This document shows positions 3,038 to 7,528 of a DNA stretch of 64,000 bases, in pieces. The position numbers and the translations under genes are program-made. Each line of letters begins with the position of its first letter. The stretch's first letter is position 1. Below the pieces are notes generated by a model that was not told the origin of the DNA, ran no database searches, and saw only the letters and a list, made by a program, of their open reading frames with translations. The stretch is from NCBI GenBank assembly GCA_012271135.1, contig JAAXGZ010000045.1, forward strand, positions 1 through 64,000, in the 5' to 3' direction. This DNA is from Caldilineales bacterium (GTDB taxonomy: Bacteria > Chloroflexota > Anaerolineae > Caldilineales > Caldilineaceae).

Positions 3038-3514
3038 ATGGCACGCGTGATTTCCAGTCGGGACCGGTTGCTCGAGGCCCGGTCCGGTGTGCGCCTGAGT
3101 CCGCGGGTGCAATTGACGCTGGTCGGTCTGGCGGCCATTGCACTGGTCATCTTCCTGATCGTGCGGGCCACGGTTCAGACCTCCATGTACTACCTGACGG
3201 TGGAGGAGTTCGCGGCACGGCAGGATACCCTGGCTGGTCAAAGGGTACGCCTTAACGGTTTGGTCGTGCCGGGCAGCGAACAGTGGAATGCCACCGCGAC
3301 CCGGTTGGACTTCCAACTCTACGAGGTTGAGGGCGGTACCGTGTTGCCTGTTGTCTACCACGGCCCGCGTCCGGATAATTTCAGGCCCGGCACGTCGGCC
3401 ATCGTTGACGGTTCCCTGAACGCGGACGGGCGTTTCGTGGCGGACAGTCTGCTACTCAAGTGCCCATCCCGCTATGAGGAGGGCCCCGAGGAGATTTACA
3501 TGGCAGCCGCTTGA
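3038..3514 (+). CDS. ccmE: Cytochrome c maturation protein CcmE (CXXXY variant)
   Basis: Single N-terminal TM, OB-fold-like sequence with GQRVRLNGLVVPGS, C-terminal LLLKCPSRYEEG; directly upstream of ccmABC. Confidence 0.85.
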   Translation: MARVISSRDRLLEARSGVRLSPRVQLTLVGLAAIALVIFLIVRATVQTSMYYLTVEEFAARQDTLAGQRVRLNGLVVPGSEQWNATATRLDFQLYEVEGGTVLPVVYHGPRPDNFRPGTSAIVDGSLNADGRFVADSLLLKCPSRYEEGPEEIYMAAA

Positions 3515-3535: not shown

Positions 3536-4219
3536 GTGCCAGACCACCACCCGAGTGCCTCTTCTCTGCTCCTGTCCGTGCAGGGACTCTCCAAGGCGTA
3601 CGGATATCGGACCGTGTTCAGTGAGGTCCGCTTTGAGTTGCGCGCCGGCGAATGCGTTCATGTACAGGGGGCCAACGGCTCGGGCAAGACCACCCTGCTG
3701 CGGATCCTGGCCGGGTTGACCCCCAGCGATGCCGGCACCTTGCTGGTGTCCGGGAGGGAAGTGCCGCCCGCTGTGCTGGCCCGGACAGGGGCAGTTGGCT
3801 ATCTGGGCCATGATCCCTACCTGGACGGGCGGTTGACCGTGCGCGAACACCTCGAGTTTGCGGCAGTCTGCTTTGATATGGTTTCTCCCGCCTTGCGCAT
3901 CGACGAACTGCTGGAACGAGCCGACCTCGCCGCCATGCAGCGCACGCGCACGCGGGACCTGAGCAGGGGTTGGCGCCAGCGGTTGGCACTGTGCCGCGCC
4001 TGGCTGCCGGATCCCCGGATTGTCCTGCTGGATGAACCCGACAGCCACCTGGACGCCGAAGGCCTGGACTTCCTCGCGTCCCTGCTGGGCGAGCGTCGGG
4101 CCGGGTCACAGGGTATTCTCTTTGCCGGCCATCGGCCACCGTCAGGCTGGGCCGACCGGATCCTGGTCCTTAAGGAGGCCCGGCTCGTGGAAGCGCATGG
4201 CTGCCGTTCGTCCGGTTAA
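3536..4219 (+). CDS. ccmA: Haem exporter ATP-binding protein CcmA
   Basis: Walker A GANGSGKTTLLRIL, LSRGWRQRLALCRA, Walker B IVLLDEPDSHLD; gene context. Confidence 0.9.
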   Translation: MPDHHPSASSLLLSVQGLSKAYGYRTVFSEVRFELRAGECVHVQGANGSGKTTLLRILAGLTPSDAGTLLVSGREVPPAVLARTGAVGYLGHDPYLDGRLTVREHLEFAAVCFDMVSPALRIDELLERADLAAMQRTRTRDLSRGWRQRLALCRAWLPDPRIVLLDEPDSHLDAEGLDFLASLLGERRAGSQGILFAGHRPPSGWADRILVLKEARLVEAHGCRSSG

Positions 4220-4979
4220 CCCAGGCGGTGCCGTCCGCGAGGGCTCCGTACCCAACCGGGAATCGACGCCGGACGTTCGGATTCGGCAACGCGGGTCGTT
4301 GGCAGCCCTGTGCTTTCAAGTGGCGGCCATAGTGCGCATTGAGATGCGGACGGAGTTGCGGGGCCTGCCGATTCTATCGGCCATGGCCAGCTTGGGTGTG
4401 TTGACCGTTCTGGTGCTGGGATTCGTGTTCGAAGCCGCGGGGGCCGCCGACGGCACTCGGGTGTCCGGTGTGTTGTGGGCAGCCCTGATGCTGGCCGGCT
4501 CGGCCGGCCTGGAACGGCAGTTCGGTTCGGCCGACGCACGATCCATGACCGGATTTCTCCTGGCGGCGCCGGTATCGCGGACGGCGATCTTCCTGGGTCG
4601 GCTTTGGGTCTGGAGCCTGCTGTTGGCGGTCGCGGGGGGGCTGGCGTTGATAGGCGTGATCGTCCTGTTCGACGCGGAGTTGTGGAAGCCCGGCATCCTG
4701 GGCGTGCTGTTCCTGGGATGCATCGGCTTTGCGGCTGTAGGCACGACGGTGGCCGCCATGATGTCCGGCATGCGCCAGGGGCAGGGTTTGGTGGCCGTGA
4801 TCGTGCTGCCATTGGCCATCCCGTTGTTGCTGGCCGGAACCGGCGCTTGCAACGCGCTGACGCAGGGGGCGTCCGGGCAAACCTACGGGGCGTGGATTTT
4901 GATGGTGATCCTCTTTGATCTTGTGGCGGTCGCGGTCGGTATACTGCTTGCCAACCTTGTTTGGCAGGACTGGCGGTGA
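4197..4979 (+). CDS. ccmB: Haem exporter permease CcmB
   Basis: Six-TM CcmB-like protein: RIEMRTELRG, GLERQFGSADARSMTGFLLAAPVSRTAIFLGRL; between ccmA and ccmC. ATG at 4197 chosen within a longer ORF. Confidence 0.85.
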   Translation: MAAVRPVNPGGAVREGSVPNRESTPDVRIRQRGSLAALCFQVAAIVRIEMRTELRGLPILSAMASLGVLTVLVLGFVFEAAGAADGTRVSGVLWAALMLAGSAGLERQFGSADARSMTGFLLAAPVSRTAIFLGRLWVWSLLLAVAGGLALIGVIVLFDAELWKPGILGVLFLGCIGFAAVGTTVAAMMSGMRQGQGLVAVIVLPLAIPLLLAGTGACNALTQGASGQTYGAWILMVILFDLVAVAVGILLANLVWQDWR

Positions 4980-5710
4980 ACGGATCTCCCCAAATAACGC
5001 TGCGTTGGCACCGGGTCCACGAGTTGGTGACGCTTGCGGCGTTCCTCAGTTTGATTGCGGCCCAGTGGTTCGGGCTCATCAATGCGCGTCCGGCCGCCAA
5101 TCTCGTCGGCGTCGAACAGGTTGCGCAGCGGATTTTCTATACCCACATGGGGACGGTTGTGGCCGCCGTGACCGGTCTGGCGCTGTCCTTCGTCTGTAGT
5201 CTTGGATGGCTCCTGCGCAAACGTTCCGGCTGGGACCTGATGGCCGCGGCCGGTGTCGAGGTTGGCTTGGTGGCCTCGCTCTGCCTGCTGGCCACCGGCA
5301 GCATCTGGGCCAAGCCCACCTGGAACACTTGGTGGACATGGGACCCGCGCCTAACCTCCATGCTGGTGCTCGTTCTGGTATATGTCGCCTACCTGATTCT
5401 GCGGAACGGCCTCGAGAACCCGCGCACGCGGGCAACATTCGCCGCCGTGTACGCCCTCCTGGCCTATGCCATGGTGCCGCTGACCTACTATTCCGCCGTA
5501 TGGTTTCGCAGCATCCATCCGATGATCTTCCTAGACGACAATCCGACCGGCGAGGGCGATTTCGGTCCCTTCCTGGGGCCCACCATGACTTTGGCCCTCC
5601 AGTGGTCCATGTTGGCGTTCGTGCTGTTGGCTCTGTGCCTCGTGTTCCTGCGCTGGCGCATGCTGCGCCTGGATCGAACCATACAGATTCTGCAGGCCCG
5701 TTTGGCCTGA
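4976..5710 (+). CDS. ccmC: Cytochrome c maturation protein CcmC
   Basis: WW domain GSIWAKPTWNTWWTWDPRLTSMLVL; GTG start overlaps the ccmB stop. Confidence 0.93.
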   Translation: MNGSPQITLRWHRVHELVTLAAFLSLIAAQWFGLINARPAANLVGVEQVAQRIFYTHMGTVVAAVTGLALSFVCSLGWLLRKRSGWDLMAAAGVEVGLVASLCLLATGSIWAKPTWNTWWTWDPRLTSMLVLVLVYVAYLILRNGLENPRTRATFAAVYALLAYAMVPLTYYSAVWFRSIHPMIFLDDNPTGEGDFGPFLGPTMTLALQWSMLAFVLLALCLVFLRWRMLRLDRTIQILQARLA

Positions 5711-5780: not shown

Positions 5781-5921
5781 ATGCAGTATCTTTTCCTGGC
5801 CCTGGCCGTCGTTTGGACCATCACCCTGCTGTATATGGTGTTCCTCATCAACAAGCAGAAACAGCTCGAGACCTTGGTGTACGAACTGCAACAACGGCTG
5901 GATCGGGAATCCGGCGACTGA
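5781..5921 (+). CDS. ccmD: CcmD-like short membrane protein
   Basis: 47-codon ORF, one TM then a charged coiled tail (MQYLFLALAVVWTITLLYMVFLINKQKQLETLVYELQQRL), directly after ccmC. Confidence 0.7.
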   Translation: MQYLFLALAVVWTITLLYMVFLINKQKQLETLVYELQQRLDRESGD

Positions 5922-5984: not shown

Positions 5985-6914
5985 TTGGATTCCCGTACCG
6001 AACGAATTTCCGCGGAGGCGTTTCCCGTGACCCAACACACGGCGACCATGACCCCACCGGCTGTCCAAATACGCTGGTCCCACACGTTTCTGCATTCCCT
6101 GGCGTTTGTTGTCGGGTTCGGTCTGATCTTCACGCTGCTGGGATCCGCGGCCGGGCTCATGGGGCGCAACCTGAACTACCTGCTGCCCGTCGTGCAGAAG
6201 ATTGGTGCCGTGCTGCTGGTGTTCTTTGCCTTGGTCATCACAGGCCTGGTCAACCGCCTGGCCACCGGCCTGCGCGCGCACATGGATCTTGCCGCCAATC
6301 CCGCGGCCGCCCTGCTGGTGCGGGGCCTCGACTGGGCCAACGGCCTGTTCTATACGGAACGTCGGGTGGCCCAGATGCACGAGGTGCGCCAAGGCTGGGG
6401 CTATCTGAGCAGCATTCTGATGGGTGTGAGCTTCAGTGCGGGTTGGGTGCCGTGTGTGGGACCCATTCTTGCCAGCATCCTGTTCCTGGCCGGTGACAGT
6501 GCCACGGTGGTGACGGGTGCCTCTCTCCTGGCGATCTTCAGCCTTGGCCTCGGCATTCCGTTTCTGGTCACCGGGGCTGCCTTCGGCACGGTGGCGGGTT
6601 GGCTGCGCCGTCTCAACCGGCACACCGGGATCATCAGCTATGTGAGTGGGGTATTTCTGGTGGCCGTGGCGTATCTGTTGTGGCAGGACCAGTTGGTACG
6701 GTTGACAGCCTCCTTCGGGGTTCTCAACGTGGTCACACTGCAATGGGAGGAATGGTTCACCGAGGCACTGGGTCTGACCATCAATCTGGATGCCAGCCTG
6801 GTAGCCAGCGCTCCGTTGGCCTTTCTGGCGGGGGTCATTGGGTTTTTCAGTCCCTGCGTCCTGCCGCTGATTCCCGCCTACATCGGATACCTCAGCGGAA
6901 CGTCGTTGCGCTGA
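5985..6914 (+). CDS. ccdA: CcdA-like cytochrome c biogenesis membrane protein, apparently circularly permuted
   Basis: Canonical TM2-TM6 order first (SLAFVVGFGLIFTLLG; SILMGVSFSAGWVPCVGPILASIL; SLGLGIPFLVTG), then C-terminal LAFLAGVIGFFSPCVLPLIPAYIGYLSGTSLR, which is normally the N-terminal TM1. Start could be TTG 5985, GTG 6027 or ATG 6048. Confidence 0.85.
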   Translation: MDSRTERISAEAFPVTQHTATMTPPAVQIRWSHTFLHSLAFVVGFGLIFTLLGSAAGLMGRNLNYLLPVVQKIGAVLLVFFALVITGLVNRLATGLRAHMDLAANPAAALLVRGLDWANGLFYTERRVAQMHEVRQGWGYLSSILMGVSFSAGWVPCVGPILASILFLAGDSATVVTGASLLAIFSLGLGIPFLVTGAAFGTVAGWLRRLNRHTGIISYVSGVFLVAVAYLLWQDQLVRLTASFGVLNVVTLQWEEWFTEALGLTINLDASLVASAPLAFLAGVIGFFSPCVLPLIPAYIGYLSGTSLR

Positions 6915-7528
6915 TGGCTGTGCGCCTGGCCGTGGGCCTGTTGGTCCTGTTGCTCGTCGCAGGTTGTCGGGGAGCGCCGGGCCCCGACGCTGCATTCCAG
7001 GACCCGGGACGGGTGCCGCCGGAGATTGGGATTCTGCTGACTCCCCCGTTTGTCCCCGGTGATTCGCTCCTGACCGGAAGCGTGCCGGGTCGACTGGGGT
7101 TGTGGGATCCAGTCGAGGGGCAACCGGTTCCGGTGTTCTCGCTGTTCGCGCCGGACGGTGCCTCCATGTCCAGCGAGGCTCTGTCCGGAAGGGCCCTGGC
7201 CATCAATTTCTGGGCTTCCTGGTGTGGTCCCTGCCGCCATGAAATCCCGCTGCTGGTGGAGCGGCAGGCGGAATTGCCGGAGGATCTGCTGATTTTGGCT
7301 GTCAATGTCCGGGAGGCGGAATCGAAGATTGTGGATTTTGCGGCAGAGGTGGGGTTGGAGTTGCCGATTGTGCTTGACCCGGACGGTGAAGTCTCGGACC
7401 TGTTCGGTGCCCGCGGGTTGCCGACCACGGTGTTTGTGGACCCGCAGGGCAACCTCACCGCGACTTGGCAAGGAGTGCTGGACCGGGCCAAGCTGGTCCA
7501 GTTGACGGACGCCTCACTCGGTCGCTGA
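6914..7528 (+). CDS. ResA/TlpA-family thiol:disulfide oxidoreductase lipoprotein
   Basis: Lipobox LLLVAGC; INFWASWCGPCRHEIPLLVE; GLPTTVFVDPQG; ATG overlaps the ccdA stop. Confidence 0.93.
   Translation: MAVRLAVGLLVLLLVAGCRGAPGPDAAFQDPGRVPPEIGILLTPPFVPGDSLLTGSVPGRLGLWDPVEGQPVPVFSLFAPDGASMSSEALSGRALAINFWASWCGPCRHEIPLLVERQAELPEDLLILAVNVREAESKIVDFAAEVGLELPIVLDPDGEVSDLFGARGLPTTVFVDPQGNLTATWQGVLDRAKLVQLTDASLGR

Follow-up and report, generated by a model that had tools for sequence, protein, structure and literature searches.

A CcdA-type membrane protein with its first helix moved to the C-terminus, a probably recurrent circular permutation in Chloroflexota, DPANN archaea and a Melainabacteria-labelled phylum

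The gene preceding the resA-like gene in the window (the whole stretch of 64,000 nucleotides that was analysed) encodes a circularly permuted CcdA. The helix order TM2-TM3-TM4-TM5-TM6-TM1, proposed in the preliminary description, was confirmed by phmmer and Pfam searches and by the scores of rotated sequences against a hidden Markov model. The protein very likely has the CcdA fold with both redox cysteines kept and a canonical-like function, and represents a recurrent rotation by one helix seen in Chloroflexota, DPANN archaea and a Melainabacteria-labelled phylum. There are good grounds to think that this one-helix permutation had several independent origins, among bacteria as well as DPANN archaea, with the gene remaining in its operon; the two orders occur together in at least four separate clades with good support. 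If so, a polytopic transporter can be rotated in nature such that its two termini change sides of the membrane, with each helix keeping its orientation and function.

The permuted gene and its helix order

The gene occupies positions 6027..6914 of the forward strand. The likely start codon is GTG at 6027, the alternatives being ATG 6048 and TTG 5985. It is preceded, 8 bases upstream, by GGAGG at 6014-6018, and it is kept in a relative from the same genus (L003); hence the product is a protein of about 295 amino acids. The start at TTG 5985 in the preliminary description is the mechanical beginning of the open reading frame, and GTG 6027 is likelier. By inspection of the sequence, the stop codon TGA (6912-6914) overlaps the ATG (6914-6916) of the resA-like gene on the same strand.

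The order of the genes in this region, all on the forward strand, is ccmE-A-B-C-D-permuted ccdA-resA. The ccmE gene for the haem chaperone of cytochrome c maturation (3038..3514, Pfam CcmE 1.4e-25) is followed by ccmA for the haem exporter ATPase (3536..4219, NCBIfam ccmA 138.6 bits, above the cut-off), a gene for a ccmB-like membrane subunit (4101..4979, Pfam CcmB 4e-11; the start is uncertain and lies after ccmA), a gene for a ccmC-like haem handling protein (4961..5710, Pfam Cytochrom_C_asm 8.8e-21; TIGR01191 ccmC 6e-32, below the cut-off) and a gene for a small membrane protein of the ccmD family (5784..5921, TIGR04391 38.1 bits with a cut-off of 24). Downstream is a ResA/TlpA-like thioredoxin-fold gene with the WCGPC motif (6914..7528, Pfam AhpC-TSA 3.4e-19; NCBIfam ResA model 1.8e-23, below the cut-off). 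Both a thioredoxin-fold partner gene and genes of cytochrome c maturation are therefore found near the permuted ccdA. The ResA-like protein starts with MAVRLAVGLLVLLLVAGC (6914-7000), a lipoprotein-type signal with a lipobox-like motif, and thus is probably anchored in the membrane.

The ORF contains HTFLHSLAFVVGFGLIFTLLG near the N-terminus, GWVPCVGPILASIL in the middle of the chain and LAFLAGVIGFFSPCVLPLIPAYIGYLSGTSLR at the extreme C-terminus. Six hydrophobic segments are seen, and the AlphaFold2 (AF2) model has helices there as well. The first helix (HTFLHSLAFVVGFGLIFTLLG, 6087..6161) is equivalent to TM2, as follows from the alignment with residues 41-106 of the Thermus thermophilus CcdA (5VKV) and the AF2 helix. 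It is followed by the equivalent of TM3 (6186..6245; 5VKV alignment, hydrophobicity and AF2) and by a TM3-TM4 loop (6246..6407), predicted to be cytoplasmic, that contains an insert compared to 5VKV; inserts at this place are present in the canonical relatives L088 and L089 too. The equivalent of TM4 (6408..6494, 5VKV alignment) carries one redox cysteine (GWVPCVGP, codon 6453-6455). The equivalents of TM5 (LGLGIPFLVTG, 6510..6578) and TM6 (6624..6683), both assigned by the 5VKV alignment and AF2, are followed by a new linker (6684..6809) that is net acidic and predicted to lie outside. It leads to the relocated TM1 (6810..6899; alignment with residues 4-35 of 5VKV), which carries the second redox cysteine (FFSPCVLPLIPAYIGYLSG, codon 6855-6857). 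The boundaries of TM2, TM3, TM5 and TM6 are approximate.

Thus the motifs quoted in the preliminary description are correct, and so is its statement that both redox cysteines are kept in reversed order, that of TM4 preceding that of TM1 along the permuted chain. They reside in PCxxP motifs on two different helices. The corresponding residues of the window protein, C136 and C270, are invariant in 82 aligned permuted proteins.

The rotated order is visible in pairwise and profile comparisons. In a phmmer search of PDB, residues 254-285 of the window protein matched residues 4-35 of 5VKV, residues 15-80 matched 41-106, and residues 120-223 matched 111-210. The Pfam profile DsbD_TM (PF02683) matched the window ORF in three pieces with 68.8 bits, the curated cut-off being 27.1. 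When the whole genome was searched with this profile, all three pieces, in the order 39-100, 110-216 and then 6-35 of the profile, fell within the window ORF, which scored 62.5 bits with its neighbours; this ORF was the sole DsbD_TM protein, and the sole CcdA, of its genome.

An HMM of canonical CcdA was built from 35 canonical relatives. Its score for the window protein was 188.5 bits in the natural order and rose to 249.7 bits after rotation, as the preliminary description had anticipated. The optimal cut lies just before the C-terminal helix, and all other cuts in the core score lower. Rotation increased the score of 104 of 106 permuted proteins by a median of 60 bits and decreased that of all 35 canonical proteins by a median of 66 bits. 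The former count refers to trimmed sequences; without trimming 70 of the 106 gained, as long N-terminal extensions split the match. Both PC motifs are retained in all 106 permuted proteins. Canonical CcdA has the SPCVLP helix first and proceeds from TM1 to TM6; as the order in the window protein is TM2-3-4-5-6-1, it is classified as a permuted variant.

Distribution and number of origins

Permuted CcdA was found in 45 of 46 genomes of the GTDB family to which the window belongs, including all 17 genera and 24 of 24 good genomes; a search at the level of the order produced the same genomes. The window protein is 91 percent identical to the CcdA of Caldilineaceae bacterium bin34, and comparison with such named relatives assigns the family to the Caldilineaceae group. 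Searches in the class and the phylum, with loci fetched, yielded 106 permuted and 35 canonical ORFs, and all loci together comprise 184 permuted and 120 canonical forms with one TM1 each. These counts come from searches with permuted queries and are not estimates of prevalence. At least 18 families of Chloroflexota have the permuted form: f1, f4, f11, f15, f16, f17, f19, f20, f22, f24, f28, f32, f35, f36, f45 and f60 in the class of the window, and f82 and f121 in other classes.

Among 80 named relatives, the permuted order was also found in Woesearchaeota, another DPANN genome, Micrarchaeota and a genome labelled as Melainabacteria. In the searches of phyla the permuted form was recognised by a single match spanning the TM6-TM1 junction. 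The fetched sets contain 22 permuted and 8 canonical forms in the Woesearchaeota phylum, 19 and 5 in the Melainabacteria-labelled phylum, and 11 and 9 in the Micrarchaeota phylum. In the control phylum, to which a Desulfuromonadia genome belongs, 56 genomes gave matches, and none of the matches listed was permuted. Nor was a permuted form present among those listed for the plasmid collection (40 of 338 records), where all matches ended at or before residue 250. A permuted CcdA from a MAG labelled as Nitrospira (L189, JANYBU010000113.1) groups with family f35 of Chloroflexota, and may reflect a misbinned contig or horizontal transfer; as it falls inside Chloroflexota, it adds no further phylum to the distribution. 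The permuted homologues that the preliminary description proposed to look for thus exist, but they recur in two domains of life and do not define one clade.

In the tree of derotated sequences from Chloroflexota the order changes seven times (bootstrap range 6-8). In the tree of the whole set it changes 12 times, seven of these changes being forced by supported branches; when TM1 is left out, there are 10 or 11 changes, of which five to seven are forced. These numbers rest on about 200 aligned columns, the deep branches of the trees are weakly supported, and long branches occur. A single clade of permuted proteins is rejected by the AU test both for the complete alignment (p = 1.4e-5) and for the core only (p = 0.002).

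Both orders are found within several supported clades. In Chloroflexota, permuted proteins of f16 and f45 group with canonical ones of f41, and permuted proteins of f15 and f17 group with canonical ones of f21 and f14. In Woesearchaeota the permuted forms fall among the archaeal canonical forms, also in a supported clade, and one more supported clade with permuted and canonical members was observed in the Melainabacteria-labelled phylum. The closest permuted and canonical pairs have 66 percent identity in the core.

The genomic slot is shared as well. The position between ccmC and resA in Chloroflexota is occupied by ccdA of either order, the canonical one in f21, f27, f31 and f41. Genes of either order adjoin a gene for a CINC thioredoxin-like protein in DPANN and an lgt-like gene in the Melainabacteria-labelled phylum. 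Since a single permuted clade is rejected, and the operon slot is common to both orders in three lineages, the order probably switched several times.

One alternative is that the permutation was a single ancient event. The mixing of both orders in the tree would then be due to conversion of the TM2-TM6 core between permuted and canonical gene copies, to errors in the deep branches or to reversals. Indeed, some genomes carry both orders, making conversion possible, and weak and long branches of the kind seen here could mislead. However, the non-monophyly holds with and without TM1, and the mixed clades are both separate and supported. Moreover, TM1 of the permuted proteins from Woesearchaeota and from the Melainabacteria-labelled phylum is closer to that of canonical proteins from their own lineage than to that of permuted proteins from elsewhere, an argument against a single early permutation with later conversion of the core; the affinity of TM1 in Micrarchaeota is ambiguous. 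Finally, reversals would be permutations themselves. We thus consider a single origin unlikely. Comparison of the sequences favours several permutations in place. Their exact count is uncertain, given the weak deep branches, and fewer origins would be needed if the ancestor was permuted and paralogues recombined. The route to the permuted gene may have been a tandem duplication followed by trimming; no intermediate with TM1 at both ends was observed in 304 loci.

Topology, predicted structure and function

Canonical CcdA has six helices with both termini outside. This agrees with the presence of C-terminal WCGPC-type thioredoxin domains in eight canonical relatives. The preliminary description noted that an even number of helices allows for relinking of the termini. 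This is possible, but the move of one helix shifts both termini across the membrane: since one helix has moved and the orientations of helices are kept, both termini of the permuted form should be inside.

The charges of the loops fit this prediction of an N-in/C-in protein. The mean net charge in the 82 permuted proteins is +1.28 at the N-terminus, +3.10 in the TM3-TM4 loop (positive in 74 proteins), +3.09 in the TM5-TM6 loop and +0.35 in the C-terminal tail; it is +0.13 between TM2 and TM3, -0.40 between TM4 and TM5, and -1.85 in the new linker between TM6 and TM1. C-terminal extensions longer than 100 amino acids occur in 9 of 116 canonical proteins and in none of 166 permuted proteins, no permuted one exceeding 36 amino acids; as the long canonical fusions come mostly from one clade, this is weak as independent evidence on topology. 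The loci L085, L091, L171, L182, L193, L206 and L224 form a clade of canonical Chloroflexota CcdA with a fused C-terminal thioredoxin domain (WCGPC or WCTPC), most of them having additional cysteines in the tail.

The AF2 model computed from the 82 permuted sequences has pLDDT 83.7 and pTM 0.78; it was used instead of a model from seven sequences, with pLDDT 63. In this model the relocated TM1 consists of two helices, broken at SPCVLP (the PCxLP motif). The top match in PDB found by Foldseek was again 5VKV (probability 0.99, TM 0.41/0.51), with a weak E-value of 0.23; the program is sequential and cannot place the moved helix, and the target is an NMR model. The predicted structure thus supports the CcdA fold, short of proving it.

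In CcdA, a pair of cysteines on TM1 and TM4 carries reducing equivalents across the membrane, and an elevator movement has been postulated (PMC7329351). By analogy, the window protein is most likely an ordinary CcdA-type conduit of thiol electrons for cytochrome c maturation. Compared with the canonical chain, the cytoplasmic TM1-TM2 loop would be cut and the former ends joined by the external TM6-TM1 linker, so that every helix would hold its place and orientation, and the protein would begin and end in the cytoplasm rather than outside. Electrons of a cytoplasmic thioredoxin would reduce the cysteine pair, with TM1 and TM4 moving within the scaffold formed by the remaining helices. The reduced pair would in turn reduce the co-encoded ResA-like protein, the likely electron acceptor, which would keep the CXXCH cysteines of apocytochrome c reduced for haem attachment by the Ccm proteins. 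The moving helix TM1 would be tethered to TM6 outside rather than to TM2 inside.

The permuted form could also have diverged in function, with another partner or another direction of electron flow, and not be a plain replacement of CcdA. The predicted change of side would preclude fusions with external domains, which is consistent with the distribution of long extensions given above, and permuted and canonical copies coexist in some genomes. On the other hand, in the window and its family the permuted gene resides in the usual ccm-resA slot, filled by canonical ccdA in related families, the genome of the window has no other CcdA, and in DPANN the two forms adjoin the same CINC gene. A divergent function is thus quite improbable, and a canonical-like role of the permuted protein is the preferred reading.

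The permuted form shares with canonical CcdA (PF02683, 5VKV) the six helices, PCxxP cysteines on TM1 and TM4, segment-wise homology, a gene for a thioredoxin-like partner and the setting of cytochrome c maturation. It differs in the C-terminal TM1, the external linker, the predicted location of the termini and the TM3-TM4 insert relative to 5VKV. The membrane core is also homologous to that of DsbD/DipZ, where a CcdA-type core is fused with thioredoxin domains, and the CINC partner adjoining the DPANN forms is DipZ-like. However, permuted CcdA has no fused domain; a C-terminal fusion, none of which was found, would face the cytoplasm.

The nearest precedent is VKOR/DsbB, where thiol-redox membrane proteins are likewise related by circular permutation; these are four-helix thiol/quinone enzymes, for which duplication and deletion were proposed (PMC4555120). 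There, a pair of helices has moved (ABCD to CDAB) and the relationship is ancient, distant and based on structure, whereas in CcdA one helix has moved, the termini are predicted to change side, homology is plain in the sequence and the event is recurrent. This is an analogy only, as the window protein has six helices, a single cysteine per motif and homology to DsbD_TM, and not the four-helix bundle, quinone cofactor and CXXC pairs of VKOR/DsbB.

Hardly any natural circular permutations of helical membrane proteins are on record. VKOR/DsbB was claimed in 2015 to be the first example at the level of a family (PMC4555120), and in 2020 circular permutations were stated, to the knowledge of the authors, not to have been observed in membrane proteins (PMC7162841). 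No published permutation of CcdA or DsbD was found in open-access full texts. The permuted CcdA is thus a variant new to the open-access literature, the surprising part being its recurrence; it is visible in the sequence and frequent. As permuted and canonical orthologues share an operon slot and up to 66 percent of core residues, several questions become testable: how such rearrangements arise, whether a small inverted-repeat transporter depends on the order of folding and insertion, and whether TM1, as a mobile elevator helix, needs one tether only. Annotation that is blind to the order of domains conceals such variants, and in proteins of the CcdA family the location of the termini should not be taken for granted.

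Integrity of the loci and gene copies

The C-terminal helix might be an additional, duplicated one, with the proper TM1 encoded elsewhere, for instance in a small upstream ORF. The one-helix CcmD gene located directly upstream of the permuted ccdA could suggest this; however, CcmD has no PC motif, the window protein already has six hydrophobic segments, and the genome contains no further piece of DsbD_TM. In the family loci no second SPCVLP was found within 1.5 kb in any frame, and a six-frame HMM scan of 304 loci produced 304 matches to TM1, every one of them inside a CcdA ORF. No protein in these loci has TM1 at both the N- and C-terminus. The preliminary description, which had seen no TM1 upstream, was right on this point, and for the sampled loci an extra helix or a hidden upstream TM1 is very improbable, both being ruled out by the flank and six-frame scans. 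Rearrangement of a canonical gene by misassembly or misbinning, conceivable as the window is part of a draft assembly with 159 contigs, is hardly credible and was rejected, since the order is the same in 45 of 46 genomes of the family, including three single-contig genomes (G017, G019 and G020), and in 184 loci from many assemblies of different studies.

In L101 and L139 (G178), the part corresponding to TM1 is absent from the frame of the CcdA-like ORF, which may reflect a frameshift or a truncation. Two permuted copies of CcdA are present in each of four genomes: G023 (L034 and L134), G042 (L132 and L133), G033 (L033 and L140) and G351 (L045 and L046); in G033 and G351 the two copies belong to two different clades. 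In genome G944 of the Woesearchaeota phylum, a permuted and a canonical CcdA are encoded on the same contig (C4, 180541-181251 and 185967-186539) approximately 5 kb apart, forming a natural test pair.
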